NCBI RefSeq assembly: GCF_003352005.1
Contig: NZ_CP024848.1
Coordinates: forward strand, 2,985,001-3,049,000
DNA from: Oceanobacillus zhaokaii
GTDB taxonomy: Bacteria > Bacillota > Bacilli > Bacillales > Amphibacillaceae
DNA: 64,000 nt
Direction of reading: 5' to 3'
The stretch's first letter is position 1, and each line of letters starts with the position of its first letter. This document shows, piece by piece, positions 25,460 through 43,566 of this stretch. The position numbers and the translations under genes were made by a program. The notes below the pieces were generated by a model. The model did no database searches and had not been told where the DNA came from. It saw only the letters and a list, made by a program, of their open reading frames with translations.

Positions 25460-25752
25460 GTGCTACCGCTCCTTTCGATTGCCTCTACTTGTATTATACC
25501 TCGCGATGGTGGAATTGTATTATTATTTTGGATTAACAAGCAAGATATCAAAAGTAATAGCTTGTCTGCCAATTTAGAAAGCAATCGTTAATATAATTTA
25601 GTTTAAATGAAAGATTCACAGAATGTTTCCTTTTTCGAATAAGCCGCTTTCTAAGACAATACTCATTCGACATGTAATAATAGAAGAACATATACCACTA
25701 CCCAATTAGCTGGTACAAAAATAACATGACATTCACGAAGGAGTTGAACAGA

Positions 25753-26121
25753 TTGGGACATCTTTGTGACAAGGTGTATAACTGTGAAAAAGAATTAACC
25801 CTCGGTGTAATCGGCGGCAAATGGAAGATGCTCATCTTATGGCATCTTGGTAGACAAGGAACAAAGCGGTTTAACGAACTGAAATCACTTATGCCAGGAA
25901 TCACGCAAAGAATGCTGGTAAAACAGCTGCGCGAGCTTGAAGAAGATCGTATTGTTCACCGCGAAGTATATCCAGTCGTTCCACCAAAAGTAGAGTATTC
26001 ACTTACAGAGCATGGCATCAGTTTATTACCTATTCTTGATATGATGTATAAATGGGGAGAAAACTATATGGACAATGTCGCTAGTAAGAATGGAGTAGAG
26101 ATTAAAGAAGCTGTGAAATAA
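25753..26121 (+). CDS. hxlR: HxlR-family transcriptional activator
   Basis: The product is a winged-helix HxlR protein with the hallmark cysteine in [20 protein letters not shown]. In B. subtilis HxlR responds to formaldehyde and activates hxlAB. A TTG at 25753 is preferred because AAGGAG lies nine bases upstream and it gives nearly the family start; an ATG at 25726 has no ribosome binding site. Here hxlR is upstream of hxlA in the same direction, unlike the divergent arrangement in B. subtilis. This supports direct regulation of the downstream pair. Confidence 0.92.
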
Positions 26122-26174
26122 TTTTCCAGCTTTTTCACAGTATACTTTGTGTGACTATGTGATGTTAATGTGCG

Positions 26175-26214
26175 TACTTACATTATTTGTATATTTACTA
26201 TAGAGTAGTAAGTA
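26175..26214 (+). promoter_or_regulatory. Inverted repeat in the hxlAB control region
   Basis: TACTTAC at 26175-26181 and GTAAGTA at 26208-26214 are inverted copies inside the 133-base region between hxlR and hxlA. They are candidates for HxlR binding and overlap the likely promoter. This is inference from position only. Confidence 0.3.
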
Positions 26215-26254
26215 TAGTTAATTTAACTAAATTATTCTAAGGAGTGGAATATTC

Positions 26255-26896
26255 ATGGAACTTCAATTAGCACTAGATCTTGTTAACATTCCAGAAGCGA
26301 TTGAACTTGTAAAGGAAGTTCAAGATTCAATTGATATCGTAGAAATTGGTACACCTATTATCAATAGCGAGGGACATGCGGCTGTTCGTGAGATGAAAAA
26401 TGCATTTCCAAACTTAACAGTTCTTGCCGATATTAAAATTATGGATGCTGCTGGTTATGAAGTATCCCAAGCTTCTGCAGCAGGAGCAGATATTATCACG
26501 ATACTTGGTGCAGCGGAAGACAGCTCAATCCAAGGAGCAGTAGAAGAAGCGAAGAAATTAGGCAAGAAAATTCTAGTTGATTTAATAGCAGTAAAAGATA
26601 TAGAACAACGCGCGAAAGAGCTTGATTCATTTGGTGTCGATTATATTTGTGTCCACACTGGGTATGACCTTCAAGCAGAAGGTAAGAATTCCTTTGAAGA
26701 TCTTGAAACGATTAAAGGCGTTGTAAAAAATGCGAAGACTGCCATTGCTGGGGGCATTAAATTAGAAACATTGCCAGAAGTGATTAAATCCCAACCAGAT
26801 CTAATTATTGTCGGTGGCGGAATTACAAGTAAGGACGATAAGACTGCTGTAGCTGCCGAAATGAAAAAGCTTATCGAAGAAAGTACGGTAGCTTAA
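26255..26896 (+). CDS. hxlA: 3-hexulose-6-phosphate synthase
   Basis: The 213-residue product is a TIM-barrel enzyme of the orotidine-phosphate-decarboxylase superfamily, with the catalytic LADIKIMDAAGYE segment. It condenses formaldehyde with ribulose 5-phosphate to hexulose 6-phosphate, the first step of the ribulose monophosphate pathway. AAGGAGTGG lies before the ATG. It is followed 18 bases later by hxlB and preceded by hxlR. In bacilli it serves formaldehyde detoxification, and in methylotrophs assimilation. Confidence 0.95.
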   Translation: MELQLALDLVNIPEAIELVKEVQDSIDIVEIGTPIINSEGHAAVREMKNAFPNLTVLADIKIMDAAGYEVSQASAAGADIITILGAAEDSSIQGAVEEAKKLGKKILVDLIAVKDIEQRAKELDSFGVDYICVHTGYDLQAEGKNSFEDLETIKGVVKNAKTAIAGGIKLETLPEVIKSQPDLIIVGGGITSKDDKTAVAAEMKKLIEESTVA

Positions 26897-26913
26897 GAAG
26901 GGAAGCCGCTTAA

Positions 26914-27471
26914 ATGGAGACTGCACAATTTGCACAAAGAATTATCGATGAACTACATCATGCTGCTGAGCAATTGTCGAATGAAAATGCGGAAAAACTC
27001 GTCGAGCATATTCTAACATCGGATAAGATTTTTGTTACAGGTGCTGGTCGCTCAGGTTTAATGGGCAAGGCCTTTGCCATGCGGATGATGCATATGGGTC
27101 TCGATTCATATGTCGTAGGTGAAACGGTTACTGCGACCTATGAGGAGGGTGACATTCTAATTATCGGTTCTGGTTCAGGAGAAACGAAGAGTTTAATTCC
27201 AATGGTTGAAAAAGCAAAAAGCATTGGTGGAACCGTTGCAGTTGTCACAATCAATCCTGAATCAACACTTGGGAAATTAGCAGATATCACTGTTCAATTA
27301 CCTGGTGCACCAAAGGATCAATCGTCAAGTGAATACCAAACGATCCAGCCGATGGGCTCTTTATTCGAGCAGACCCTTTTGCTATTCTATGATGCGATTA
27401 TATTACGCTTTATGGAGAAAAAAGGACTCGACTCACAGACGATGTATGGTAAGCATGCGAATCTTGAATAG
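26914..27471 (+). CDS. hxlB: 6-phospho-3-hexuloisomerase
   Basis: The 185-residue product is a single SIS domain (TGAGRSGLMGKAFAMRMMHMG, then IGSGSGETKSLIPM) and isomerises hexulose 6-phosphate to fructose 6-phosphate. AAGGGAAG lies before the ATG. It forms an operon with hxlA and ends at a strong terminator. Confidence 0.95.
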   Translation: METAQFAQRIIDELHHAAEQLSNENAEKLVEHILTSDKIFVTGAGRSGLMGKAFAMRMMHMGLDSYVVGETVTATYEEGDILIIGSGSGETKSLIPMVEKAKSIGGTVAVVTINPESTLGKLADITVQLPGAPKDQSSSEYQTIQPMGSLFEQTLLLFYDAIILRFMEKKGLDSQTMYGKHANLE

Positions 27472-29694: not shown

Positions 29695-30135
29695 CTATTT
29701 TAAGACTTCCTCATTATATTTATCTACATGTACCTCTTCGCCACCAACAATATAATATTGTGAGCTCCCTTTTTGTACAACCCATGTCATAATATGATTT
29801 TGATCAACTTTCGCGATTACAAAATGCCATGCCTCACCGTAACTATCATCCAATTTTTCGATTAAATCTGGATTTAGTTTCCGTTCATTAAGCTCGATGA
29901 TGTTCATGAACGCTATTCCTTCCATGTTAATGACATCAGCCGTTAAGTCACTCATGAGTTCATCTAATTGTTTATCTGCTAAAAAATCTTCAGAAAAATA
30001 CGATACAGCTTTATCAACATCTTCATTTAATGCTGCCATATACATGTCTTCCACGATTCGTGCGGTTACCGAATTCATACATCCACTTAACAATAGGAAA
30101 CAAACGACAAAAGAAAATAGCCCTAATCTTTTCAT
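29695..30135 (-). CDS. Small lipoprotein
   Basis: The product starts MKRLGLFSFVVCFLLLSGC, a type II signal peptide with lipobox LSGC, so it should be anchored outside the membrane. The mature part (about 127 residues) begins with IVEDMYMAALNEDVDKAVSYFSEDF, reminiscent of NTF2/DUF4878-like lipoproteins, but the match is not certain. The ATG at 30135 is preferred over one at 30165 because it opens the signal peptide directly. It lies just downstream of the cytochrome-containing quinoprotein gene on the same strand. Confidence 0.75.
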   Translation of the reverse strand: MKRLGLFSFVVCFLLLSGCMNSVTARIVEDMYMAALNEDVDKAVSYFSEDFLADKQLDELMSDLTADVINMEGIAFMNIIELNERKLNPDLIEKLDDSYGEAWHFVIAKVDQNHIMTWVVQKGSSQYYIVGGEEVHVDKYNEEVLK

Positions 30136-30262
30136 AAAATATTCAAACCCCTTATGTAAATGCAAAATGAATAACCTAATTGTAAGCTATTTTTCTATTG
30201 TTTCAAAGCTAAAGGAAATAAGAAAAGGGTAGAATACGAGGTATTCTACCCATCTTACGTAT

Positions 30263-32578
30263 TTATTCATCTAGTTTCGCAACAATCTCACTAATATATG
30301 CTGCAACATCATCAATTTCCTCTTCCGTCAATGTGCCTTCAAAGGCTGGCATTGTTTCTCCACCAGCTTTAACTCTAGCAATAACCTCTTCCTTGTTGGA
30401 TACTATATTACTAGTTTGTAAATTAGGGCCATTATGACCGTTAGCACCTTCAGTTCCGTGACATGCTAGACAGTTACTTTCATAAACAGCTAGCCCATTT
30501 GCTGTCTTACCTTCACCAGATGAAACTGATTCACCCTCTTTATCATCTTCAGATTCTGAATCTTCAGCTGCTGAGGCATCTTCAGCATTAACTTTTACAA
30601 CATCGTCAACGGATTCAAATTTTCCATCTAGTGAAAATGTCCATATTGAATCACCATGCTTCGTACCCGCTAGAGAATTACCTGCCGCCATAACCGTGAC
30701 ATATTGTTTACCATCAACTTCATACGTAATTGGCGGAGCATTTACTCCGGCATCTGTCATGAATTCCCATAATTGCTCACCTGTTTTAGCATTGTAAGCA
30801 ATCAGCCTTCCATCATTATGACCTACAAATAAAAGATTCCCGTTGGTCGTCATTGCTCCACTGTATGCTTGTCCATCCCATTCCTGCTGCCAGGCAATAG
30901 TATTGGTTTTCACATCCATTGCTGTAACTGTACCTCTAACTGGTGCATCCATGACAGGAGCTATAATACTTCCAAGCCAGTAATGTCCTTCTTCAACAGC
31001 ATCTGGATTGTATTCAATATCTTCGTGGCGTGAAAATGTTTGGTACTGATCACTTCCTAATACATAAAAGTATTCTGTATTTGGATTGTATGCTGATGGC
31101 GGCCAGTTAGCCCCTCCGGATGCAGCAGGTTTCAATGTCAATGGCTCTTCCCAAAATGGATCAAATATCTTCCCAAATTTCCCTTCAAAATCATCTGGAA
31201 GATCATTTTCTACATCCTCTTCAGTAACTTCCTGTGGAACGAATGAATCTCCTTTTGGATATGGTTGTGTTGCAGCTGTCTTTTGCCTTTCATCCTGAGG
31301 TACGGCCTTCTCCTCAATGCCAATCAATGGTTCTCCATTTGAACGATCTAGGAAATAAATCCAGCCCGTTTTTCCAGCCTGACCAAGCCCTTTACGCATT
31401 TCGCCATCAATTTCAACATCAAATAGGATAACTGGGTTAGGAGCATCCAAATCCCAAATATCATGATGAACCTCTTGGAAATGCCATGCATATTCTCCTG
31501 TCGTAGCATCTATCGCTACAATTGATGCAGCATATAAGTTATCCCCTTCCCGATTACTACCGTCAACGTCTGGTGCAGCATTCCCTGTTGAGAAATAAAT
31601 TAAGCCTAGTTCAGGATCAACTGCAGGGGTTTGCCACACCGGGGCACCACCCGTCATCCATGCCTTATTATCTGATGGCCATGTGTCATGTCCATTTTCT
31701 CCTGGACCAGGAATCGTATAAAAACGCCATAATTCACGTCCCATTTCAGCATCGAACGCAGTTACACGCCCCCTAATTCCGTATTCTCCACCAGCAAGAC
31801 CCGTGTAGACCTTACCATCATAGTACAGTGGTGCACTTGTAATCGTATAGCCTTTTTCCCACTCAGCAACTCTTTCCTCCCAAATTACTTCCCCTGTTTT
31901 TTGATCCAACGCTACTAATCTAGCATCTAATAACCCTACAAATACTTTCCCATCACCAACTGCAACGCCGCGACTTGTCCAGCCGCAACATACAGTTGTT
32001 AGTTTTTCAGTAATATGTGGTCGATATTCCCAAATCGTCTCCCCAGTAATTGCATCGAGCGCTAGCACATCATTTGCCCCAGTAATCACGTACATTACAC
32101 CATCATATACAACTGGTGATGCCTCACCAGAGTATTTAAAATCTAAACCAGATCCCATACTTGCAACCCATTCTGCTTTTAACTCCCCAACATTAGATGC
32201 ATTGATTTGGTCAAGTGGTGAATAGCGTTGATTATTAAGGGTACCACCATTTGTTAACCAATTACTTGTCGGCAGCTCTTGTAATTCTGCTGCTGTAAAT
32301 GCTGGTGCCACTTCCGCCTCATACGGTTTAAGCTGTTTCACTACTGCATCGGTTTCAATCGTTTCTATACCTTCCGAATCCTCGGTTTCCTCAAGTTCTC
32401 CGGGATCTTCTGGTTCTGTCGGTTCCTCCGGTTCTTCTGCCTCTGACTGCTCCTCAGAACCTGCTGTTGCTTTTGCGGGTTCTGCATTATTATTTGTTGA
32501 TAATGCCCATCCCCCTACACCCGCTGCAAATAAAATGAAGATACCAATAATTGCCCAAACTATCTTTTTATTCTCCAA
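30263..32578 (-). CDS. Membrane-anchored PQQ-type dehydrogenase with C-terminal cytochrome c
   Basis: The 771-residue product has an N-terminal membrane anchor (residues 7-26), an acidic Glu/Pro-rich tether (about 40-75), an eight-bladed PQQ-type propeller (about 105-650) and a C-terminal cytochrome c. The propeller shows the vicinal cysteines at 197-198, Glu265 in GGEYG, Asn333 in STGN and the catalytic Asp376 in WDLD, all expected of PQQ alcohol dehydrogenases. The haem motif CLACH is at 703-707, with Met743 as likely sixth ligand. It probably oxidises an alcohol or aldehyde outside the membrane and passes electrons to the haem. The start is TTG with GGGGGG upstream. A sigma-A promoter and an upstream terminator make it its own unit. 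PQQ enzymes are rare in Gram-positive bacteria. Confidence 0.88.
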   Translation of the reverse strand: MENKKIVWAIIGIFILFAAGVGGWALSTNNNAEPAKATAGSEEQSEAEEPEEPTEPEDPGELEETEDSEGIETIETDAVVKQLKPYEAEVAPAFTAAELQELPTSNWLTNGGTLNNQRYSPLDQINASNVGELKAEWVASMGSGLDFKYSGEASPVVYDGVMYVITGANDVLALDAITGETIWEYRPHITEKLTTVCCGWTSRGVAVGDGKVFVGLLDARLVALDQKTGEVIWEERVAEWEKGYTITSAPLYYDGKVYTGLAGGEYGIRGRVTAFDAEMGRELWRFYTIPGPGENGHDTWPSDNKAWMTGGAPVWQTPAVDPELGLIYFSTGNAAPDVDGSNREGDNLYAASIVAIDATTGEYAWHFQEVHHDIWDLDAPNPVILFDVEIDGEMRKGLGQAGKTGWIYFLDRSNGEPLIGIEEKAVPQDERQKTAATQPYPKGDSFVPQEVTEEDVENDLPDDFEGKFGKIFDPFWEEPLTLKPAASGGANWPPSAYNPNTEYFYVLGSDQYQTFSRHEDIEYNPDAVEEGHYWLGSIIAPVMDAPVRGTVTAMDVKTNTIAWQQEWDGQAYSGAMTTNGNLLFVGHNDGRLIAYNAKTGEQLWEFMTDAGVNAPPITYEVDGKQYVTVMAAGNSLAGTKHGDSIWTFSLDGKFESVDDVVKVNAEDASAAEDSESEDDKEGESVSSGEGKTANGLAVYESNCLACHGTEGANGHNGPNLQTSNIVSNKEEVIARVKAGGETMPAFEGTLTEEEIDDVAAYISEIVAKLDE

Positions 32579-32745
32579 TAAAATGCCCCCCTGTTTTCTT
32601 TAAGTAGGAAATACAAAGAACATCATAAAGAAATACTATTTTACTATTTTTTTATGGTTGGTAACGTTTTCATAAATCTCCTCCTTTTAAAGTCCTAAAT
32701 TTTTCTTCCTATACAACCCTATAGACATAAGACTAATCACGTAAC

Positions 32746-32774
32746 ATTCTACGCTGAATATTGGGAATTGTCAA
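32746..32774 (-). promoter_or_regulatory. Sigma-A promoter of the cytochrome-quinoprotein gene
   Basis: On the minus strand TTGACA and TAGAAT are separated by exactly 17 bases, a near-consensus sigma-A promoter. It lies about 170 bases upstream of the start, leaving a long leader without a recognised element. Confidence 0.82.
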
Positions 32775-32859
32775 TTTTTCATATAAAACTTGATTAACTT
32801 TTCTGTAATGAGGAAATATCTATACTGGTACCATTAATAAGTCTAACAATATATAAGAA

Positions 32860-32890
32860 AGGGGAGGAATACACTAAGGTATCCTCCCCT
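32860..32890 (-). terminator. Rho-independent terminator after the cupredoxin gene
   Basis: AGGGGAGGATAC pairs with GTATTCCTCCCCT (one bulged base), followed on the minus strand by a T-rich run. It separates the upstream three-gene unit from the cytochrome-quinoprotein gene. Confidence 0.8.
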
Positions 32891-32907
32891 ACAATCGATA
32901 ACAATAT

Positions 32908-33285
32908 TTAACTTACAACTAAATTTCCTGCCATGCTATCATGGCCCACCCCACAAAGAATGTTACAATAAAATTCAAACGTTCCAACCTCATCTGCAAC
33001 AAACTCTATCGTTTCACCATCTAAAAGCGTAACATCATATCCTTCAACTTCAATACCGTGAGTTCCAGAATCGCTAACTAAAGTTAATTTAACTCTGTCG
33101 CCTTTGTTTACACTTATTTCATCTTGATCAAATTCAAAATTAGTAGCATGAATGGTTATTTCCACTACTTTACCTGATTCTTCTTGATTTGCTCCCTGAT
33201 CTGTATCACTAGTATCTCCACCACATGCTGTTAATAAAAGAACGAATAGTGATGCGATTAAAACCCCAAAAAACTTTTCTTTCAT
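32908..33285 (-). CDS. CuA-type cupredoxin lipoprotein
   Basis: The 125-residue product starts with a lipoprotein signal (LLLTACGG) and is otherwise a single cupredoxin domain. It carries a full set of binuclear CuA ligands, as in cytochrome oxidase subunit II: His76, Cys107, Cys111, His115 and Met118 in FYCNILCGVGHDSM. No transmembrane COX2 helices are present. This fits an electron carrier tethered to the outer face of the membrane. The ATG at 33285 has GGGGGAAG upstream. It follows the repeat lipoprotein and a quinoprotein in one unit, so it may accept electrons from the quinoprotein. Confidence 0.88.
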   Translation of the reverse strand: MKEKFFGVLIASLFVLLLTACGGDTSDTDQGANQEESGKVVEITIHATNFEFDQDEISVNKGDRVKLTLVSDSGTHGIEVEGYDVTLLDGETIEFVADEVGTFEFYCNILCGVGHDSMAGNLVVS

Positions 33286-33328
33286 TTTACTTCCCCCTCT
33301 AATGTGATTTTTTGTTAACGGATTTGCT

Positions 33329-34489
33329 TTACCCTTCTTTCGGAACAATCATTGTCGGTTCATTTTCATTTGGTTCAGGCAAAAATTCAGAAGAAACCAT
33401 GTCTCCAGACTCTTTTCCCTCTAACAAAAACTTTTCAAATGATGCTTGGTAAAAGGTTGGAGACCCATTCCAGACTAATTTAGGAACTTTCATCGTAAAA
33501 GTACCATCTCTATTTGGGATTGTCACCGAATATTCAACGTCTCCATCTACATGTAATCCAATCATTATCCCTGTGTAAAGCGCTCCTGGAGCCGTTCTAC
33601 TAACTAGATACGGTGGTTCGTCTGTAATGACTTCCCCTTCACTTGGTAGTTGGATGTCAACTTGTACACTTATATCTTCTGGAAATTGAAATACTCTATT
33701 ATCTGGGAGATGGTAAGTTACCCCTTCATATACGACATTTAAATAGTGGTCCTCATCGTCTTCTGGTAAATACATCATTTGATATTCTCCATCTTCATTA
33801 CTTGGATGTGACACAGTGAATCCTTCCACACCATCCCGACGTAGATTCACAGTAGCTCCTTCAATTGGATTCCCTTCACTATCTACAACAGTTCCATGTA
33901 CACTATATTTACTGGTTCCAAAAGCTGGGTATTCTTGATTTTCATCTAAGATTGCCGTACCTTCTACAACCACGAATTTTTCATCCTCTTTTGAGGGTTC
34001 CACACTAATTATTTCTATAGGATAGCTAACGGTTATTTTTTCACTTAGTGACAGTAACGCATGTTTTGTTTCATCTAAAAGTTCACCATCACCTATTTTA
34101 GCATTGTCAACATTTACAACTTCGACGGTTTTATTCGCTAAGTTATTGCGGTCAATCATAAAACTAAATGAGCCAGTTTCATCTGTTTTTATTATTCTCT
34201 TCGCATCAACTTGAATTGCAGCATCATTGACAGGCTTTCCGTCCACCGTTAATATCCCTATTACCTCTTCCAGTTGTGAATTATCTAAACGCCAAGGAGT
34301 AACTGATAAATTTTGTTTATCTAAAGATAGGGAGACATCTTGCACAACAGCCTTTTCTCGTTGCTCTTCCTCCATATCTTTTTGTCCCTGTTTTTGTCCA
34401 CTTTCAATTTGATCCTCACTTGTTCCAGTACAGGCAGATAATAATGGTATTATCAACATGAAAAAAATGAATAAAAGCTTCTTTACCAC
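33329..34489 (-). CDS. Lipoprotein with carboxypeptidase-regulatory-like repeats
   Basis: The 386-residue product has a lipoprotein signal (LIIPLLSAC) and then beta-rich modules. GKPVNDAAIQVDAKRIIKTDETGSF and GTVVDSEGNPIEGATVNLRR are typical of carboxypeptidase regulatory-like domains, which are immunoglobulin-like carriers often found in surface proteins. No catalytic motif is seen. It sits between a quinoprotein gene and the CuA gene and may hold the components together at the cell surface. Its role is not known. Confidence 0.78.
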   Translation of the reverse strand: MVKKLLFIFFMLIIPLLSACTGTSEDQIESGQKQGQKDMEEEQREKAVVQDVSLSLDKQNLSVTPWRLDNSQLEEVIGILTVDGKPVNDAAIQVDAKRIIKTDETGSFSFMIDRNNLANKTVEVVNVDNAKIGDGELLDETKHALLSLSEKITVSYPIEIISVEPSKEDEKFVVVEGTAILDENQEYPAFGTSKYSVHGTVVDSEGNPIEGATVNLRRDGVEGFTVSHPSNEDGEYQMMYLPEDDEDHYLNVVYEGVTYHLPDNRVFQFPEDISVQVDIQLPSEGEVITDEPPYLVSRTAPGALYTGIMIGLHVDGDVEYSVTIPNRDGTFTMKVPKLVWNGSPTFYQASFEKFLLEGKESGDMVSSEFLPEPNENEPTMIVPKEG

Positions 34490-34512
34490 TCCTTCTCCCC
34501 CTCTCCAAATGA

Positions 34513-34538
34513 AAGGCAGAGAGCACCCTCTCTGCCTT
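34513..34538 (-). other. Strong hairpin between cotranscribed genes
   Basis: Perfect 11-base arms AAGGCAGAGAG and CTCTCTGCCTT enclose a four-base loop. It lies between the quinoprotein and repeat-lipoprotein genes. On the minus strand only a weak T-run follows, so it may attenuate or stabilise the mRNA and not fully terminate it. Confidence 0.65.
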
Positions 34539-34578
34539 ACTACTATTCGTTTGGGTCCAAGAGTCGAGCTCCATTGCT

Positions 34579-36330
34579 TTAATCACCTTGCTCCTTATCC
34601 CCACCTAAAGCGAACACAAAGATTTGTGGATCTCTACCTGCAGAAGTAATGGCGATATATTGCTTCCCATTTTTGGTAAAAATAGATGGTGCTGCAGAAA
34701 TCGTTTCACCCGTTGTTTGGAAATTCCACAGATTTTCTCCTGTAGCTGTATCAATTGCTTGCACATTTCCACTTAATTCTCCAAAGAAAGTTATTCCTGT
34801 AGCTGTACTTGATAAACCTCCGCGCATCGCATCGTCCGTTTTGATTTGATAAACAATTTCACCATTTTCTAAATCAATCGCTGTAACCGTACCGTAACTT
34901 TCCACATCATCTGCTGGTGCTGCATATGAAGTACCAAATGCCCACACACTTCCGTTCTTTTCTACTGCTTCTTGTTCATTCCCTGCCACTTTGATAATAC
35001 TCGGTGATTCAATCCCCGGAATTAACACCAAATTAAGTTCAGGATCAAAGGTGTCTGGGGCATAGTTCTGACCGCCTAGAATTCCAGGGTATACTAAAGT
35101 ACCTTCTGGTGTTGGATCGGGGTGATCTATTTTACTGAAAGCAATATTTTCATAAATGGTTTCTCCTGATTCAGCATCCCATGCCCACCATTCCCCGCCT
35201 TTACTACCTTCAGCAACTACTCGGCGCTCCTCACCGTTAATAGTAGCAGTAAATACAGATGGGCTATCCGCACTGTCATAATCCCATAGATCATGAGAAA
35301 TCTGTTGATTTACCCACTTCATTTGACCTGTGTCAGCTTCTACCGCTATAACGGAGTTCGTATGTGGATTCGCTCCTGGCCGTTTTTCCCCATAGAAATC
35401 AGGGGCAGGATTACCTGCAGCAAAGTATATTGTATCTGTTTCTGGGTCAACACTTGGTGGCATCCATACTGCACCACCTCCACCAAATAAGCCTTCCGCC
35501 AGCCAATCTTCTCCTTTAGGGGGAACAGTCCAAAATGGTTCATCCCATGCGGGACTTAAATCACTTGAATTAAATGCCATCTCGAATCCACGAACTCCAT
35601 TGTCTCCACCAGATGAACCTACGAATATTTTTCCATCATAATAGATTGGAGCTGTTGTTTCATAGTAACCATTTTCAGGCGTGAGTGTAGGAAAGTAATC
35701 ACTTAATAAGATTCGATCAATCGTTTCTCCGGTCTCTTGATCGATAGAAACGAGTCCAACATCACCAGTAATCATGAATACTTTTCCTTCCCCTACTGCC
35801 ACTCCCCGATTAGTCATTGGCATACTTTGACGCTCTAGCGTATCTAATAATTCTTGAGGTGGTTCCCATCGCCACTTTTCTTCTCCTGTAACCGCATCAA
35901 ATGCAAAGACATAGTTTGCCCCAGTTGTAACATACAGGACCCCATCGATGATAATCGGATAGCTTTGATTTCCTGCTGGAATGTTTTCATTTAATTCTTT
36001 AAACTTTTGAGACCAGACTAACCCTAGATCATTCACATTATCTTTCGTTATTTCATCAAATGGAACATGACGGGTTAATTCTAAATCATAACCAAATGTT
36101 GACCAGTTTTCATACTCAGCATCCTCTGGTTCCTCGGTTTCTTCTGGCTCTTCCGTTTCTTCTGGTTCTTCAGCCTCTTCTGGTTCTGCTTTCTCTTCTG
36201 GCTGTTTCTCAACTTCTTCTGACTGTTGAACGGATGTATTATTATGAATAGCCATTTGCCAAACAAGGACTCCAATAATTACAAGTAAGGCCAATCCGCC
36301 AACCAACCAAATAATTGTTCTGTTTTTCAA
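34579..36330 (-). CDS. Membrane-anchored PQQ-type dehydrogenase without haem
   Basis: The 583-residue product has an N-terminal anchor (about 7-25), a long Glu/Pro/Thr tether (about 40-72) and a PQQ-type propeller. Metal and catalytic positions by comparison with PQQ alcohol dehydrogenases are Asp243 in GGDNG (normally Glu), Asn307 in AAGN and Asp350 in WDYD, followed by a second Asp352. The vicinal cysteine pair of the partner enzyme is absent, as is any CxxCH, so it needs an outside electron acceptor. The TTG start has AGGGGG upstream. It is the first gene of a unit with a repeat lipoprotein and a CuA cupredoxin. Substrate unknown; a non-catalytic propeller cannot be excluded. Confidence 0.85.
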   Translation of the reverse strand: MKNRTIIWLVGGLALLVIIGVLVWQMAIHNNTSVQQSEEVEKQPEEKAEPEEAEEPEETEEPEETEEPEDAEYENWSTFGYDLELTRHVPFDEITKDNVNDLGLVWSQKFKELNENIPAGNQSYPIIIDGVLYVTTGANYVFAFDAVTGEEKWRWEPPQELLDTLERQSMPMTNRGVAVGEGKVFMITGDVGLVSIDQETGETIDRILLSDYFPTLTPENGYYETTAPIYYDGKIFVGSSGGDNGVRGFEMAFNSSDLSPAWDEPFWTVPPKGEDWLAEGLFGGGGAVWMPPSVDPETDTIYFAAGNPAPDFYGEKRPGANPHTNSVIAVEADTGQMKWVNQQISHDLWDYDSADSPSVFTATINGEERRVVAEGSKGGEWWAWDAESGETIYENIAFSKIDHPDPTPEGTLVYPGILGGQNYAPDTFDPELNLVLIPGIESPSIIKVAGNEQEAVEKNGSVWAFGTSYAAPADDVESYGTVTAIDLENGEIVYQIKTDDAMRGGLSSTATGITFFGELSGNVQAIDTATGENLWNFQTTGETISAAPSIFTKNGKQYIAITSAGRDPQIFVFALGGDKEQGD

Positions 36331-36734: not shown

Positions 36735-38174
36735 TTACACAATACCAAACCACGTATAAAGCGCGATAACAACAAATACTGCTAATGTTTTAATGATTGT
36801 AATCATGAATATGTCGCCATATGACTGTCTATGCGTTAATCCTGTAACAGCAAGCAACGTAATTACAGCGCCGTTATGTGGAAGTGTATCCATACCACCT
36901 GATGCCATCGCAACAACTCGATGCATAACTTCAGGTGAAATACCCGCTGCGGCGATTGCTTGATTGTATTGATCTGCCATCGCACTTAAAGCAATCCCCA
37001 TTCCTCCAGACGCAGACCCTGTAATACCTGCAAGTGTACTCGTCGTCACTGCACCATTAACAAGTGGATTCGTAAATGTACCCGATATCCCATTACTAAT
37101 TGCGGTAAACCCAGGAAGAGCTGAGATAACGCCACCAAAACCATATTCCGATCCTGTGTTCATAACGGCTAATAATGAACCGCCAATACTCGTGTTTAGT
37201 CCTTCTTTAAGCTTTGTCTTCACTCGTTTAAAATTATAGGCGAGTGCCGTGATAATTCCGACAACCAATGCAATTTCAACTGCCCAGATCGAAGCGGTTT
37301 TAGCAACATCGACAGCATATTGCTCTAATCCAAGTAAAGCAAAATCAAATCCATCTGGATACCAACTTGGTATTGCCTTCGTTAAATAATTATTCATTAC
37401 TGCTACGAGAACAAGTGGAACAAATGCTAGAATCTGTTTTATAACAGATTGATTCGAGTTTAAATTTGGCATAGATTCTTCACTACTTGTTGCTTTTTCC
37501 TTTTCAAGAGCAGCAGCAGCTTCATCTCCAAACCCAAAGTAACCTTCTCCCTTTTTCTTGGCTTGTCTCTTTCTCCACTCTAAGTATGCAAGTCCTGCAC
37601 CAAAGACAATGATACCGCCGATTATTCCAAGTACTGGTGCAGCATAAATGTTTGTCCCAAAGAAAGAGGTAGGGATAACATTTTGAATTTGTGGTGTACC
37701 AGGTATGGCATCCATCGTGAAAGTAAATGCACCAAGTGCAATCGTTGCAGGCATCAACCTTTTAGGGATATCTGCTTGAATAAACAATTGTTTCGCAAAA
37801 GGATAGATGGCAAAAACGGCAACAAATAAGCTTACGCCACTATATGTTAAAATTGCACCTAGCAAAATAACCGTCAACATAGCCTGTTTAGCACCGATAA
37901 ATCTTACAATTGTTTTTGCAATGGATTCTGCAATCCCTGACATTTCAACAACTTTCCCGAAAATGGCACCTAATAAGAAGACTGGGAAATAGTTCTTAAT
38001 AAATTCAACCATCTTTTCCATGAATACACCGGAATAGAACGGCAGTATGTTGATCGGATCTATAAAGACAACAGCTAATAAGGCAGCTATCGGCGCGAAT
38101 AAGATAACAGAATATCCGCGATATGCAGCAGTCATTAATAGCGCTAGTGCTACTAAAATTGTAATTAATTCCAT
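36735..38174 (-). CDS. GntP-family permease (YxjC-like)
   Basis: The product (about 479 residues) has some twelve hydrophobic helices and the GntP-family segments DAIPGTPQIQNVIPTSFFGT and MASGGMDTLPHNGAVITLLAVT. In B. subtilis the homologous yxjC gene lies with scoAB and yxjF. The likely substrate is 3-hydroxybutyrate, acetoacetate or a similar small acid; this is inference from context. The ATG at 38174 has AGGGGGATG upstream and is preferred over an ORF start at 38219. It is the last gene of the sigma-54-type operon. Confidence 0.88.
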   Translation of the reverse strand: MELITILVALALLMTAAYRGYSVILFAPIAALLAVVFIDPINILPFYSGVFMEKMVEFIKNYFPVFLLGAIFGKVVEMSGIAESIAKTIVRFIGAKQAMLTVILLGAILTYSGVSLFVAVFAIYPFAKQLFIQADIPKRLMPATIALGAFTFTMDAIPGTPQIQNVIPTSFFGTNIYAAPVLGIIGGIIVFGAGLAYLEWRKRQAKKKGEGYFGFGDEAAAALEKEKATSSEESMPNLNSNQSVIKQILAFVPLVLVAVMNNYLTKAIPSWYPDGFDFALLGLEQYAVDVAKTASIWAVEIALVVGIITALAYNFKRVKTKLKEGLNTSIGGSLLAVMNTGSEYGFGGVISALPGFTAISNGISGTFTNPLVNGAVTTSTLAGITGSASGGMGIALSAMADQYNQAIAAAGISPEVMHRVVAMASGGMDTLPHNGAVITLLAVTGLTHRQSYGDIFMITIIKTLAVFVVIALYTWFGIV

Positions 38175-38247
38175 GTACACATCCCCCTGACAATTTAATA
38201 TATCTCGTAAAGGCTTCACTAACCTAAGAATGTCGAAAGGTTAGAAA

Positions 38248-38380
38248 ACTACGGTTTAGCCAAGCCTTTCGATGACAGCCTTAGTTCGAATCAAAAGTCC
38301 TTTTGATTCTGCGATGTATCACTTCGTAGTGTTCCTTTGTGCACTTACTCGTTAAGAAGGTTTTTATACCTTCCTATCTA
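38248..38380. repeat. Dispersed intergenic repeat copy
   Basis: Positions 38248-38280 match 54758-54790 at 28 of 33 bases. The right end (CGTTAAGAAGG and beyond, from 38350) resembles 23030 onward. It lies between the thiolase and permease genes and has no coding frame. Confidence 0.6.
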
Positions 38381-38390
38381 CCCAAGAATA

Positions 38391-39569
38391 TTAAACCCTC
38401 TCCACTACCATCGCAATACCTTGTCCTCCACCGATACATAAGGATGCAACACCATATCTTTTCTCACTTCTAATTAGTTCCCTTATTAATGTGTATAATA
38501 CTCGATTACCACTTGCCCCAATTGGATGTCCTAGCGCAATGGCCCCACCATTTACATTTACTTTTTCTCTATCTAAACCTAGTTCTTTTTCTACAGCTAA
38601 ATATTGAGCTGCAAATGCTTCATTTATTTCAAAAAGATCTATATCGTCTATTGCCAAAGACGCTTTTTCTAATGCATGTTTAATCGCGGGGACAGGACCA
38701 ATGCCCATCAACGCCGGGTCTACGCCAGCAATACCCCAGGAAATAATTTTAGCCAGTGGATTTAAACTATTTTTTTGCACAACATTTTCACTTGCCACCA
38801 CAATTGCACCTGCACCATCATTGATTCCGCTCGCATTTCCACCCGTTACTGTACCATCTTTTTTAAACGAAGGCCTGAGCTTCGCTAATTTTTCTGTCGA
38901 CGTATCTTCACGGATATGTTCGTCTTCCTTCACTATCAATGTTCCTTTTCGCGTTGATATTTCAACTGGAACAATTTCTTCAGCAAACTTTCCTTGACGT
39001 CTTGCCTCAGCGGCTCGCATATGGCTTAGATAGGCATATTCATCCTGCTCTTCTCGTGTAATCGAGTATTTTTCAGCGAGATTTTCAGCCGTTACACCCA
39101 TGCCAGAGCCAATATATTCGTCAGTTAAAGACGCCCATAGAGTATCGTCGATTTGTGGTGTTCCAAGCTTTGTACCAAACCGACTTCCCCTTAATGCATG
39201 TGGTGACAGACTCATATTTTCAACACCACCAGCAAGCGCCACTTCCCCATCGCCAAGCATGATCGCCTGGGCAGCGGAAACGACCGACTGAAGTCCCGAG
39301 CCACATAAGCGATTAACTGTCAGTGCTGGACTTGTCAATGGGATATCTGATTTTAAGGCAATATGTCGAGATAAATATGGTGCATTTTTTGCAGAATGAA
39401 TGACATTGCCAATGACCGAAAAATCAATGCTGCTTGGATCAATACCACTGCGACGAATGGCTTCCTTGCTTGCTGTGACACCTAGTTCTGTTGGGTCAAC
39501 ATCCTTCAAGCTTCCACCAAAGGTTCCGAAAGGTGTTCTAGCACCCTCTAAAATATATACCGCTTTCAT
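38391..39569 (-). CDS. Acetyl-CoA acetyltransferase (thiolase)
   Basis: The 392-residue product has the thiolase catalytic set: cysteine in LCGSGLQS, histidine in GHPIGASG and the second cysteine in LCIGGGQG. It splits acetoacetyl-CoA into two acetyl-CoA. Its place after scoB and 3-hydroxybutyrate dehydrogenase makes this the degradative last step of ketone-body use. It begins about 24 bases after the dehydrogenase gene. Confidence 0.92.
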   Translation of the reverse strand: MKAVYILEGARTPFGTFGGSLKDVDPTELGVTASKEAIRRSGIDPSSIDFSVIGNVIHSAKNAPYLSRHIALKSDIPLTSPALTVNRLCGSGLQSVVSAAQAIMLGDGEVALAGGVENMSLSPHALRGSRFGTKLGTPQIDDTLWASLTDEYIGSGMGVTAENLAEKYSITREEQDEYAYLSHMRAAEARRQGKFAEEIVPVEISTRKGTLIVKEDEHIREDTSTEKLAKLRPSFKKDGTVTGGNASGINDGAGAIVVASENVVQKNSLNPLAKIISWGIAGVDPALMGIGPVPAIKHALEKASLAIDDIDLFEINEAFAAQYLAVEKELGLDREKVNVNGGAIALGHPIGASGNRVLYTLIRELIRSEKRYGVASLCIGGGQGIAMVVERV

Positions 39570-39592
39570 TTCTGCTATCTCCCTTCTGTTCG

Positions 39593-40369
39593 TTACTGTG
39601 CAGTATAACCGCCATCGATTAATACTGCTTGGCCAGTAACTCCTTTTGCTTTATCACTCGCCAAAAATAGAGCATAATCGGCAATTTCTTGTACGTCCAG
39701 TAAGCGTTTTTGTGGCACTAATGGATACAATACTTCTTCAAGCACTTTTTCCAGTGGTACATTTCGGGTTTTTGCTAAATCAGCGAATTGTCCTCGAACA
39801 AGTGGCGTATCGACATAACCAGGGCAAATTGCATTCACTGTTATGCCATGATCTGCCCCTTCTAATGCCGCTACCTTCGTTAAGCCAATGACACCATGTT
39901 TGGCACTATTGTATGCAGCTTTTCCAGCAAAACCAATGACACCATTAATTGAAGCCATGTTTAAAATTCTTCCTGATCCTTGTTTCTTCATGATTGGAAA
40001 CACATGCTTCGTTGCCATAAATGGAGCTACTAACATCACCTTAATCATAAATTCATATTTATCAGTTGGAAAATCCTCCAGGTCTGCGACATGCTGCAAT
40101 CCGGCATTATTAAATAAAACATCCAGTCTTCCATACTTTTCAACAGTCCTGTCAATTGCCTGCTGCAGCTCTTCTTCCTTCGTCACATCACATTTTAACC
40201 CTAAACAGTCATAACCCTCTTTTTGCAGTTGCTCCGTTACCTCCTTCACCTTTTCTTCATTAATATCTGAAAAAGCTACCTTTGCACCATTTTTTAAAAA
40301 TGAAATACCAATTTCATGACCAATTCCACTCGCTGCACCAGTTATAAACACTACTTTATCTTTGACCAT
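39593..40369 (-). CDS. yxjF: 3-hydroxybutyrate dehydrogenase (SDR)
   Basis: The 258-residue SDR has the nucleotide-binding TGAASGIG, the NAG segment and the catalytic Tyr/Lys of AYNSAKHG. Its neighbours and overall sequence match B. subtilis YxjF, a likely 3-hydroxybutyrate dehydrogenase that yields acetoacetate. AGGAGG lies before the ATG. It sits between scoB and thiolase. Confidence 0.88.
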   Translation of the reverse strand: MVKDKVVFITGAASGIGHEIGISFLKNGAKVAFSDINEEKVKEVTEQLQKEGYDCLGLKCDVTKEEELQQAIDRTVEKYGRLDVLFNNAGLQHVADLEDFPTDKYEFMIKVMLVAPFMATKHVFPIMKKQGSGRILNMASINGVIGFAGKAAYNSAKHGVIGLTKVAALEGADHGITVNAICPGYVDTPLVRGQFADLAKTRNVPLEKVLEEVLYPLVPQKRLLDVQEIADYALFLASDKAKGVTGQAVLIDGGYTAQ

Positions 40370-40388
40370 TTTACAATTCCTCCTTTAT

Positions 40389-41069
40389 TTAGTACGTACC
40401 CATTCGGAGGCTTTCACTCACATGTAACGCTGCATCAGTTGATTCAATTATTTCTTCTATACTAAATCCTTTTGCAACTTCAACAAGTACTAGCCCCTTA
40501 TTCTCTACATCGATAACTGCACGATCGGTAATAATCCGATTGACAACATTTTTACCTGTTAGTGGAAGTGTACATGTTTTTAAAATTTTCGCCTCACCCT
40601 TTTTATTCACATGGTCCATAATCACGACAATTTTCTTCGCTCCATGGACGAGGTCCATTGCTCCACCCATCCCTTTAATCATTTTCCCAGGTATCATCCA
40701 ATTTGCTAGATCTCCCTTTTCGGAAACTTCCATACCACCTAGAATGGCAAGATCTATATGACCTCCACGGATCATTGCAAATGACTCGGCACTGCTAAAA
40801 TAAGATGCCCCTGTTATCGCTGTTACGGTTTCTTTCCCAGCATTGATTAAATCTGGGTCTACTTCTTCCTCATACGGAAATCGACCGATACCAAGTAAAC
40901 CATTCTCTGATTGGAGAACAACTTCTTTTCCAGGTTGAATATAATTTGCAACCATCGTCGGCATGCCAATTCCTAAATTCACATAGGAACCGTTCACAAT
41001 TTCCTGCTCCGCTCTTTTTGCAATCCTTTCTCTTACAGTCGTTTTATCGAACTTGTTTTGTTTTATCAT
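40389..41069 (-). CDS. scoB: Succinyl-CoA:3-oxoacid CoA-transferase subunit B
   Basis: The 226-residue product carries the catalytic glutamate in [10 protein letters not shown], typical of the beta subunit of class I CoA transferases. It activates acetoacetate to acetoacetyl-CoA with succinyl-CoA. GGAGGGAAC lies before the ATG. It follows scoA closely and the two subunits form the enzyme. Confidence 0.93.
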
Positions 41070-41091
41070 TTTGTTCCCTCCTCCCTAAGGA

Positions 41092-41787
41092 TTATGCATG
41101 CTGTGTTATTGTCAGCTTTTCAATACGTTTTTCTTGTTTGCCCTCAATTAGCCGTTGTACATAAATTCCCGGAGTATGAATTTGAGCAGGGGAAAGTGTT
41201 CCCGGTTCAACCAATTCCTCCACTTCGGCAATCGTTACGTTTCCAGCAGTTGCAATCATTGGATTAAAGTTTTGCGCTGTTTTTCTATAAATCAAATTTC
41301 CCTTTTTATCACCAACCGCTGCTCGAACAAGGCTAAAATCCGCCTTTAATGCGGTTTGCAGCAAGTATTCTTTATTATTAAATGTACGTACTTCAATTCC
41401 TTCTGCAATCGGTGTCCCTACCCCTGCTGGAGTATAAAATGCAGGAATCCCTGCTCCACCTGCACGAATTCGCTCTGCAAGCGTCCCTTGTGGAACGAGC
41501 TCTACCTCTAGCTCGCCTGATAAGACTTGACGCTCAAACTCTTTATTTTCGCCAACATAAGAGCCTATCATTTTATCAATCTGCTTATTCTGTAATAATA
41601 ATCCCAGACCCCAATCATCCACACCGCAATTATTAGAAATTACCGTCAAATGTTTTACTTCAGAATCTCTGAGGGCTAGAATAAGATTCTCCGGAATGCC
41701 AACAAGACCGAAGCCTCCTACCATAATCGTCGAGCCATCAGTAATATCCTTTACTGCTTCATTAAATGATGTATGAATTTGTTTCAT
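41092..41787 (-). CDS. scoA: Succinyl-CoA:3-oxoacid CoA-transferase subunit A
   Basis: The product (231 residues) has the glycine-rich [13 protein letters not shown] segment of CoA-transferase alpha subunits. The ATG at 41787 ([11 protein letters not shown]) has GGGAG upstream. A longer frame from 41829 would begin inside the sigma-54 promoter and is rejected. It is the first gene of the ketone-body operon. Confidence 0.93.
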
Positions 41788-41815
41788 CACTGCTTCTCTC
41801 CCTTCCAGATATATA

Positions 41816-41834
41816 CATGCAAAAATCATGCCAA
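41816..41834 (-). promoter_or_regulatory. Sigma-54 promoter of the sco operon
   Basis: On the minus strand TTGGCATGATTTTTGCATG carries the -24 GG and -12 GC elements exactly ten bases apart, a near-perfect match to TGGCAC-N5-TTGCA. It lies about 30 bases upstream of scoA, and a sigma-54-type activator gene lies upstream. Confidence 0.9.
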
Positions 41835-41953
41835 CTATATAAAAATCCCATAAGTTAATAATTTAACTAGCATCATTTCTTTAGATGACAGCATTGAGCT
41901 GACTAATGAAGTGAGTGGACTATTTAAAAATCTCTTACTAATTAATAATAAAA

Positions 41954-41989
41954 CATACCTACTTTCCAGATTCTTGGAAAATAGGTATG
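41954..41989. terminator. Bidirectional terminator between activator and sco operon
   Basis: CATACCTA and TAGGTATG arms, extended through TTTCC/GGAAA, form a stem of about 14 pairs with one mismatch and T-rich runs on both sides. On the minus strand it ends the activator mRNA. Confidence 0.78.
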
Positions 41990-42042
41990 ATTCTTTTTAA
42001 CAAAATATTGTAAACCTTTTCAAAAACTACCAATTACTTTTA

Positions 42043-42058
42043 TTCCGGAATTTCGGAA
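42043..42058 (-). promoter_or_regulatory. Candidate enhancer for the sigma-54 activator
   Basis: TTCCG and CGGAA inverted halves separated by six bases lie about 210-225 bases upstream of the sigma-54 promoter, a usual distance for an activator site. It is just beyond the activator stop codon. Inference from position and symmetry. Confidence 0.4.
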
Positions 42059-42079
42059 TGAATTCCATGTTAGTGGAAA

Positions 42080-43444
42080 TCAAAGATCATATTTACTTAT
42101 TTTATCATATAAGCTTGATTTCCCGATTCCCAATAATTTCGCTGCAGCTTGCTTGTCCCCATTTGCTTTTTTCAGTGTACGTTCTATTGCCAATTTTTCC
42201 GTTTGCTCAATAATCTCCTTTAATGTACCAGCATTCTCATTCACTAAACCATTTGGCTGCAAATGATCTGGAAGATCTTTCAAATGTATTCTCTCGGAGT
42301 TTGTCAGATGTACTGCTGACTCTATTACGTTTTCTAACTCTCTAACATTCCCCGGCCAGGTGTAATGCATAAAATAGTCCAATACCTTTGTATCGAAGTC
42401 AAGCACACGCTTACCTGTACGATTCGTTATCTTTTGAAGAATATATTTTGCTAGTACTCGAATATCCTCTGGCCTTTCTCTAAGCGGCGGTGTCTGCATT
42501 TGAATTACATTTATTCGATAAAATAAATCTTCTCTAAACTGCTGTTCCTGAATCAGTTTCTCCAGTGGCTGATTAGTAGCCGTAATGATTCTTACATCAA
42601 CTTTATCTGTCTGAACCGCGCCAATTGCTTCTACTTCTCCGTCTTGCAAAACTCGGAGTATTTTCACCTGTGCATTTAATGGCATATCACCAATTTCATC
42701 TAAGAACAATGTTCCTCCATTCGCAAGCTGGAATTTCCCAAGTTTTCCACCCTTCTTCGCCCCTGTAAAAGCACCCTCTTTATAGCCAAATAATTCTGAC
42801 TCTAGTAAGTGCTCGGGAATCGAAGCACAATTAATTGAAACAAATGGTTTCGTATGCCGCTCACTTAAATGATGAATACTGTGAGCGACGAGCTCCTTCC
42901 CAGTTCCACTTTCCCCTCTGATTAGTACGGTGGCATCACTCGGTGCGATTTTCTTAATTTTCGTTTTCAATTCCGTAATTTGTGGAGAATTCCCAATTAT
43001 ATCGTGTAAAGAATATGTTGTTCCATAGCGGTCGTTTAGTTGTTTGCGATATTCCTCCAATTCAAGTAGCAGCTCTTTAATGTGACTATTCATGTTCATC
43101 CATTCTTTCGTATCACGAAAAAGAACAATGCCAACCGCACCAACCACCCGTTCATTGGCACGTACGGCAACTCGATTGGCAATCATATGATTTCCACGTA
43201 TGTACTGCAGATCAGCTATCTCATCTTTGCCTGTTCTCGCAACAATGTGCATTCTCGAATTCTCAATCACATCGGCAACAGGTTTTCCAATTGCATCCTC
43301 TCTCTTTACTTCAAGGAAATTACAATAGTGGTCATTCAAGTATATGATCCTGCCTTCCGCATCAACAATAACTAAGCAATAGTAGAGATTTTCAAGGACC
43401 GTCTCTAGTATTTCGTTACGATATGGACTGATTAAACGATGCAT
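42080..43444 (-). CDS. Sigma-54-dependent activator, PAS-AAA+-Fis
   Basis: The product (454 residues) has an N-terminal PAS sensor domain (ETVLENLYYCLVIVDAEGRI), a central AAA+ domain with GESGTGKE Walker A, the sigma-54 contact loop GAFTGA and DEIG Walker B, and a C-terminal Fis-type helix-turn-helix (DKQAAAKLLGIGKSSLYDKI). The ATG at 43444 has GGAGGTAAATC upstream. It most likely drives the sco operon, whose sigma-54 promoter lies beyond its 3' end. The PAS ligand may be an acyl or ketone compound; not determinable here. Confidence 0.93.
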   Translation of the reverse strand: MHRLISPYRNEILETVLENLYYCLVIVDAEGRIIYLNDHYCNFLEVKREDAIGKPVADVIENSRMHIVARTGKDEIADLQYIRGNHMIANRVAVRANERVVGAVGIVLFRDTKEWMNMNSHIKELLLELEEYRKQLNDRYGTTYSLHDIIGNSPQITELKTKIKKIAPSDATVLIRGESGTGKELVAHSIHHLSERHTKPFVSINCASIPEHLLESELFGYKEGAFTGAKKGGKLGKFQLANGGTLFLDEIGDMPLNAQVKILRVLQDGEVEAIGAVQTDKVDVRIITATNQPLEKLIQEQQFREDLFYRINVIQMQTPPLRERPEDIRVLAKYILQKITNRTGKRVLDFDTKVLDYFMHYTWPGNVRELENVIESAVHLTNSERIHLKDLPDHLQPNGLVNENAGTLKEIIEQTEKLAIERTLKKANGDKQAAAKLLGIGKSSLYDKISKYDL

Positions 43445-43566
43445 TGATTTACCTCCAAAATTTCGACTGTTTCTATGATTATACCAATACAGATGTTTAG
43501 CTAGCAATATTCTGATTTATTCAGTGAACATTGTAGACAGAATAGCTCCTTGGGAAGGGGCTGAGT

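Follow-up and report, generated by a model that had tools for sequence, protein, structure and literature searches.

Related quinoproteins and the Oceanobacillus locus

Type II quinohemoprotein alcohol dehydrogenases (ADHs) of Pseudomonas putida HK5 and Comamonas (1yiq, 1kv9, 1kb0) consist of a propeller and a C-terminal cytochrome c. The lanthanide-dependent PedH and XoxF (6zcv, 6zcw, 6dam) are not known to have a fused haem domain. CuA is known mainly from terminal oxidases and nitrous oxide reductase. The window analyzed here, a 64-kb stretch of the single-contig 4.10 Mb genome of Oceanobacillus zhaokaii, displays at 30263..36330 on the minus strand a four-gene module confirmed by open reading frame (ORF) calls. 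It encodes a propeller without haem (PQQ2), a propeller fused to cytochrome c (QHADH), a lipoprotein with CuA ligands (the CuA lipoprotein) and a second lipoprotein, CPreg. The two propellers are likely to be pyrroloquinoline quinone (PQQ) dehydrogenases on the surface of a Gram-positive cell, with QHADH passing electrons to its own haem, PQQ2 to the CuA lipoprotein, and PQQ scavenged. The PQQ2-CuA pair is a new combination; QHADH is of an already known kind.

QHADH shares the vicinal Cys pair and the PQQ and metal residues with 1yiq, 1kv9 and 1kb0, and its model aligns to type II enzymes from residue 83–91 to 769–771. It differs by its N-terminal transmembrane (TM) anchor to the Gram-positive membrane and at the DxD position, where Asp is present instead of the Thr of these three proteins. 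QHADH thus resembles the type II quinohemoprotein dehydrogenases and appears to be a known kind of enzyme in a Gram-positive setting. PQQ2 has no vicinal Cys pair and so is unlike the type II enzymes; it differs from PedH and XoxF in the same way and also has Asp in place of Glu. The CuA lipoprotein has the ligand set and cupredoxin character of the CuA domains of cytochrome c oxidase subunit II and nitrous oxide reductase, but it occurs as a small lipoprotein, or elsewhere as a quinoprotein domain, outside any oxidase or reductase.

Two other systems are close, as far as the available passages of the papers describe them. Quinoproteins of heterotrophic marine Thaumarchaeota are like PQQ2 in having no Cys-Cys pair, and some show DYD or DxD; most have a predicted TM segment, the quinone pool or blue copper proteins were proposed as acceptors, and according to the authors the genomes encode PQQ synthesis (PMC7300363). 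These passages do not mention CuA or fusions. A Parageobacillus quinoprotein sugar dehydrogenase is likewise a Bacillales surface lipoprotein, and its authors detect no PQQ pathway in the species and suggest scavenging, but it is an aldose sugar dehydrogenase homologue and belongs to another quinoprotein class; the passages mention no CuA or haem partner (PMC13068155).

The CuA lipoprotein and the proposed electron acceptor of PQQ2

The CuA lipoprotein carries a lipobox (Cys21) and the five side-chain ligand positions H76, C107, C111, H115 and M118. The full CuA ligand set that an earlier sequence-only reading of this DNA placed beside the propellers is therefore present, with a score against Pfam Cupredoxin_1 (24.3 bits) just under the cut-off of 27. 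The further proposal of that reading, that the neighbouring CuA could accept electrons from PQQ2, is backed by natural fusions. A C-terminal CuA ligand motif is found in 11 of the 120 PQQ2 relatives among the matches listed, and ORFs of two genomes (G374, G394) show a PQQ2-CuA fusion at the DNA level as well. The window CuA is 41–50% identical to these 13 fused CuA domains.

The PQQ2-type propeller is also found with a C-terminal cytochrome c instead (G139, G261, G653) or with a type 1 copper domain, recognized in L086 by a match to sulfocyanin (PF06525, 49.7 bits) and in L117 by eye. In a FastTree phylogeny with midpoint root, all PQQ2-type proteins, whatever their acceptor, cluster together with support 1.0 and separately from QHADH and the proteobacterial quinohemoproteins, although some inner branches are weak. 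It is mainly because acceptors interchange on one propeller type that transfer from PQQ2 to CuA is supported, and there is strong support for the CuA lipoprotein as the putative electron acceptor of PQQ2.

The CuA lipoprotein could instead be a copper carrier that acts alone, or a protein related to oxidases that is present by chance. Among solved structures it is closest to the CuA domains of cytochrome c oxidase (E about 1e-7), and the standalone relatives listed for it consist of the window protein, the protein of Oceanobacillus arenosus, which is the nearest named relative for the module locus, and three distant proteins with no CuA motif. Weighing against transfer from PQQ2 as well, 109 of the 120 PQQ2 relatives among the matches listed have no CuA motif. 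However, the fusions, the identity of the window CuA to the fused domains, and the presence of other one-electron carriers at the same C-terminal place make a chance neighbour unlikely, and the CuA lipoprotein is retained as the candidate acceptor of PQQ2.

Within the literature searched, which covered few subscription papers, no paper was found that pairs 'quinoprotein' with 'CuA domain', nor any with 'PQQ-dependent', Bacillaceae, alcohol dehydrogenase and lipoprotein, or with 'PQQ-dependent dehydrogenase', cupredoxin and Firmicutes. The case is evenly balanced for a wider class of Gram-positive surface quinoproteins with a fused or partner CuA acceptor, in which cytochrome c and sulfocyanin would be interchangeable with CuA, and PQQ, probably with a lanthanide, would be scavenged.

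CPreg shows a lipobox and a CarboxypepD_reg domain (44.9 bits), in agreement with the carboxypeptidase-regulatory-like lipoprotein noted earlier. CPreg homologues adjoin PQQ2-type genes in six of ten genomes (G000, G312, G374, G394, G111, G410), all six with a copper acceptor. CPreg was not found in the fetched loci of G139, G261 and G653, which are cytochrome-fused, or of G513, which has no acceptor domain; the acceptor of a second PQQ2-type copy in G261 was not seen. As the six genomes with a CPreg homologue all have copper acceptors, CPreg may serve the PQQ2-copper pair.

A probably secreted protein of ~150–165 amino acids (aa) is encoded next to cytochrome-fused PQQ2 genes, at loci with no CPreg (Table 1). 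The L112 copy has no Pfam or NCBIfam match.

Structure/function motifs of the two propellers

PQQ2 and QHADH give 259.2 and 378.1 bits against Pfam PF01011 (cut-off 26.7), and no other PF01011 protein was found in the genome. QHADH and PQQ2 score 475.3 and 300.1 bits, respectively, against TIGR03075 (PQQ-dependent dehydrogenase, methanol/ethanol family), below its cut-off of 480.05. Both N-termini show a TM-like stretch and an acidic linker with no lipobox Cys, as read from the sequence, and the QHADH model has a helix at 4–28. PQQ2 displays no haem motif. QHADH has a PF13442 cytochrome domain (57.7 bits) and a single CXXCH, which gives the haem site C703xxC706H707 with M743 as a possible axial Met; one propeller is haem-fused and the other haem-free, as described before.

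The metal and PQQ positions of PQQ2 are R175, D243 (replacing Glu), W289, N307, D350, D352 (of a DYD), K377 and N422. All are invariant in the alignment, window and O. arenosus included; Asp rather than Glu is at the metal-ligand position, and the second Asp of DxD is D352, in 70 of 70 aligned sequences each. The corresponding QHADH residues are C197-C198, R203, E265, W315, N333, D376, D378, K403 and N491. In the QHADH alignment the vicinal Cys pair and the PQQ/metal residues, among them the metal-ligand Glu E265 and the DxD Asp D378, are kept in 73 of 73 sequences, as are C703, C706, H707 and M743.

Foldseek places BamB below 30 quinoprotein rows for both models, the PQQ2 fold being judged from the model of the PQQ2-CuA fusion P0124, a relative with 74% identity across 87% of the PQQ2 sequence. 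In the Foldseek and VIA results the CuA and cytochrome domains of the two models were barely covered, and the folds of these domains rest on sequence. By sequence, predicted fold and PQQ/metal residues, both propellers resemble catalytic quinoprotein dehydrogenases and not BamB, and a BamB-like or empty propeller was rejected on the same three grounds. Judged by residues and fold, the PQQ-type assignment in the sequence-only reading is supported: PQQ-site residues are present and BamB is not the best relative, so that neither of the outcomes it named as refuting, a missing PQQ pocket and a grouping with BamB, was seen.

The DxD Asp of lanthanide enzymes is present in QHADH (D378) and in PQQ2 (D352), an additional Asp that, in the passages available, marks lanthanide-dependent ADHs (PMC11845868). 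This Asp is not exclusive, since a second Asp is shared by 10 of the 14 proteobacterial relatives read.

Distribution of the module and of QHADH

Comparison with O. arenosus gives omega values from 0.05 to 0.20 across the four genes, with no internal stops. These exclude chance ORFs, and a relic module in the window genome was rejected on the same values; the module is genuine, and purifying selection acts on it. The complete four-gene set was seen only in the window genome and O. arenosus. In O. chungangensis (L027/L073) QHADH is reduced to a broken C-terminal part with the same genes nearby, and the stretch fetched around it yielded no PQQ2, CPreg or CuA; this is a lineage-specific loss of the module. 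Matches at E 1e-100 or better come from only six plasmid records, each with <60% identity, and a plasmid source is rejected.

QHADH relatives number 7924 (120 among the matches listed), with a sister branch of 52% identity in metagenome-assembled genomes (MAGs) labelled Alphaproteobacteria. Intact QHADH shows a patchy spread in the order sample, 18 of 397 genomes. The sequence-only reading took a tethered propeller at a Bacillaceae surface to be new in form, which does not hold for the haem-fused protein: its family is type II quinohemoprotein ADH-like, is patchily spread in the order, and has some members in genomes with pqq operons.

Twenty-five intact QHADH loci were read, the window included and some ended by contig ends. 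Near QHADH are a tripartite ATP-independent periplasmic (TRAP) transporter in 10, a GSDH-type quinoprotein in five, the PQQ2-CPreg-CuA set in two and none of these in eight. Outside the window, 23 of 24 loci have no PQQ2, CPreg or CuA at the locus, and two of those 23 genomes (G374, G394) carry the PQQ2-CuA fusion elsewhere. The GSDH-type quinoprotein adjoins QHADH in L058, L059, L060, L115 and L116 (PF07995 in L115, relatives elsewhere), which places two types of PQQ enzyme next to each other. In L113 a sulfoacetaldehyde acetyltransferase, over its NCBIfam cut-off, is situated near a TRAP transporter and QHADH, and an organosulfonate link is possible for that neighbourhood. Because TRAP transporters occur in 10 of the 25 loci and the acetyltransferase in this one only, no substrate is claimed.

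Beside the module in the window are a gene for an HxlR-like regulator, assigned by eye, and the genes hxlA and hxlB of ribulose monophosphate (RuMP) formaldehyde fixation. Since hxlA and hxlB score over their cut-offs and lie ~3 kb off on the other strand, QHADH might be a methanol dehydrogenase supplying formaldehyde to the RuMP enzymes HxlA and HxlB. However, hxlAB remain near the O. chungangensis locus though the module is lost there, hxlAB are found among 23 loci searched only in the two O. chungangensis copies, and the recurrent neighbours of QHADH are the TRAP transporters and GSDH-type quinoproteins. A methanol function is considered very unlikely.

PQQ supply

No pqq gene was noted within the window. 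Profile searches of the window genome gave no PqqB and no PqqC (PqqA and PqqD were not searched there), and for PqqE only two matches below cut-off with 25–28% identity to a Bacillaceae PqqE, both judged by eye to be MoaA-type proteins. The PqqC search works in the order, with 10 of 397 genomes over cut-off. PQQ is thus probably scavenged in the window genome, in line with the earlier suggestion of an outside source.

Eight genomes read (L074, L075, L088, L091–L094, L112) contain pqqBCDE with a major facilitator superfamily (MFS) transporter, and the seven examined for it, all but L112, have a PqqA-like peptide. The MFS transporters, situated 3′ of the operons, are related across the eight genomes and might move PQQ.

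All ten PqqC-positive genomes of the order hold a quinoprotein, eight QHADH and the other two PQQ2-type, compared with 11 of 387 PqqC-negative genomes that hold intact QHADH or PQQ2-type (a broken copy in G150 is uncounted). The association by genome gives a Fisher p of 1.5e-14. By genus, all three PqqC genera are among the 10 quinoprotein genera of 135 (p 3e-4), which is the fairer value because seven of the ten PqqC-positive genomes are of one genus. In the sample of the window's family, intact QHADH is present in 18 of 159 genomes, none with PqqC. The sole PqqC genome of this sample, G653, has no QHADH but a PQQ2-cytochrome fusion directly before pqqB, and the same fusion is found just upstream of pqq genes in G139 and G261. 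In a class sample of 200 genomes PqqC is over cut-off in none and PQQ2-type proteins occur in only three, the window's included, so that co-occurrence is assessable only within the order. The protein-query genome searches scored few candidates per genome (two in some) at strict limits (1e-60, 1e-100), and second copies and divergent relatives may therefore be missed.

An alternative is that the propellers hold no PQQ and are structural, 'empty' quinoproteins like acido_non_PQQ (TIGR04528), kept without PQQ synthesis. The lack of PqqB, PqqC and a true PqqE match in the genome agrees with this, as does the lack of PqqC in the 18 intact-QHADH genomes of the family, and acido_non_PQQ is the second-best NCBIfam match of both propellers (369.5 and 275.9 bits, cut-off 650). 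But TIGR03075 outscores it for both proteins, the PQQ/metal positions are invariant, omega is 0.05 and 0.07 for the two propellers, and relatives of both families occur in pqq-operon genomes, in three with the PQQ2-type gene right beside pqq. Empty propellers are quite unlikely. On the simplest reading, PQQ is a cofactor of both families and is scavenged by the window lineage. PQQ scavenging is reported for Gram-negatives with PqqU in the passages available (PMC12124388).

Proposed electron path

Domains, ligand residues, predicted folds, fusions, gene neighbourhoods and the lack of matches to three pqq families are direct results of the analysis; we infer occupancy by PQQ and metal, a substrate, the electron path and the part played by CPreg as follows. 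PQQ2 and QHADH would be made as apo-proteins tethered extracytoplasmically to the Gram-positive membrane. Both would take PQQ straight from the medium, probably along with a lanthanide or calcium ion, because there is no outer membrane to cross and no route of PQQ synthesis was found in the genome. In QHADH electrons would pass from substrate to PQQ, to its own haem c and to the respiratory chain. In PQQ2, PQQ would give them to the adjacent CuA lipoprotein, whose counterpart in some other Bacillaceae is a fused C-terminal domain, and CuA would pass them to a cytochrome c or haem-copper oxidase. CPreg probably helps to dock or assemble the PQQ2-copper pair.

If this is true, CuA would be the redox partner of a primary dehydrogenase, and the biology of PQQ, perhaps of lanthanides, would reach Gram-positive cell surfaces. 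The absence of XoxF from the Gram-positive MAGs of one study was judged unsurprising, XoxF being periplasmic, in the passages available (PMC10875860). Cross-feeding of PQQ from producers to Bacillaceae would be directly testable, because related genera hold pqq operons.

Transcription units and neighbouring genes

The sequence-only reading treated the four genes as one module. Their co-location stands, but two units, PQQ2-CPreg-CuA and QHADH, are likelier than a single one. They are probably separate because hairpins follow CuA and QHADH and QHADH has its own promoter-like site (Table 1). The hairpin after CuA is matched by two of 200 shuffles, and promoter-like sites in the region show no excess (22 versus 23.4 in shuffles). 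A possible third hairpin is readable from the sequence between PQQ2 and CPreg, so that one PQQ2-CPreg-CuA transcript is not proven.

Table 1. Location of the module genes, signals and neighbouring features
Feature	Sequence	Coordinates	Strand	Properties
PQQ2	window	34579-36330	-	583 aa; TM-anchored PQQ-type propeller, no haem motif
CPreg	window	33329-34489	-	386 aa; lipoprotein with CarboxypepD_reg domain
CuA lipoprotein	window	32908-33285	-	125 aa; likely start ATG at 33285; longer TTG ORF reaches 33348
QHADH	window	30263-32578	-	771 aa; TM-anchored propeller-cytochrome c, quinohemoprotein alcohol dehydrogenase-like
Terminator-like hairpin after CuA gene	window	32845..32905	-	T-rich tail; -18.4 kcal/mol, z -3.15
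Promoter-like site upstream of QHADH	window	32746..32774	-	TTGACA-17-TAGAAT; consensus match only
Strong terminator-like hairpin after QHADH	window	30227..30251	-	z -7.02
lp156 lipoprotein	window	29695..30165	-	matches no Pfam family
HxlR-like regulator, hxlA, hxlB	window	25726-27471	+	
hxlA	window	26255-26896	+	
hxlB	window	26914-27471	+	
792 aa ORF	window	11988-14366	-	polyprenyl synthetase domain
Genes upstream of PQQ2	window	36735-43507	-	
~150–165 aa protein	L112	5659-6150		
~150–165 aa protein	L075	4930-5376		
~150–165 aa protein	L087	7159-7656		
~150–165 aa protein	L088	7618-8070		
Sulfoacetaldehyde acetyltransferase	L113	16567-18339		

An lp156 homologue is also found 3′ of QHADH in L018, L019, L113 and L114. 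The polyprenyl synthetase domain of the 792 aa ORF is confined to residues 532–757, and the first ~530 residues have no Pfam match. The genes upstream of PQQ2 include one for a sigma-54 PAS activator and, by eye, those for a CoA-transferase pair, a short-chain dehydrogenase/reductase and a thiolase, with a GntP-type permease after them; they may form an operon for ketone bodies or short-chain acids.

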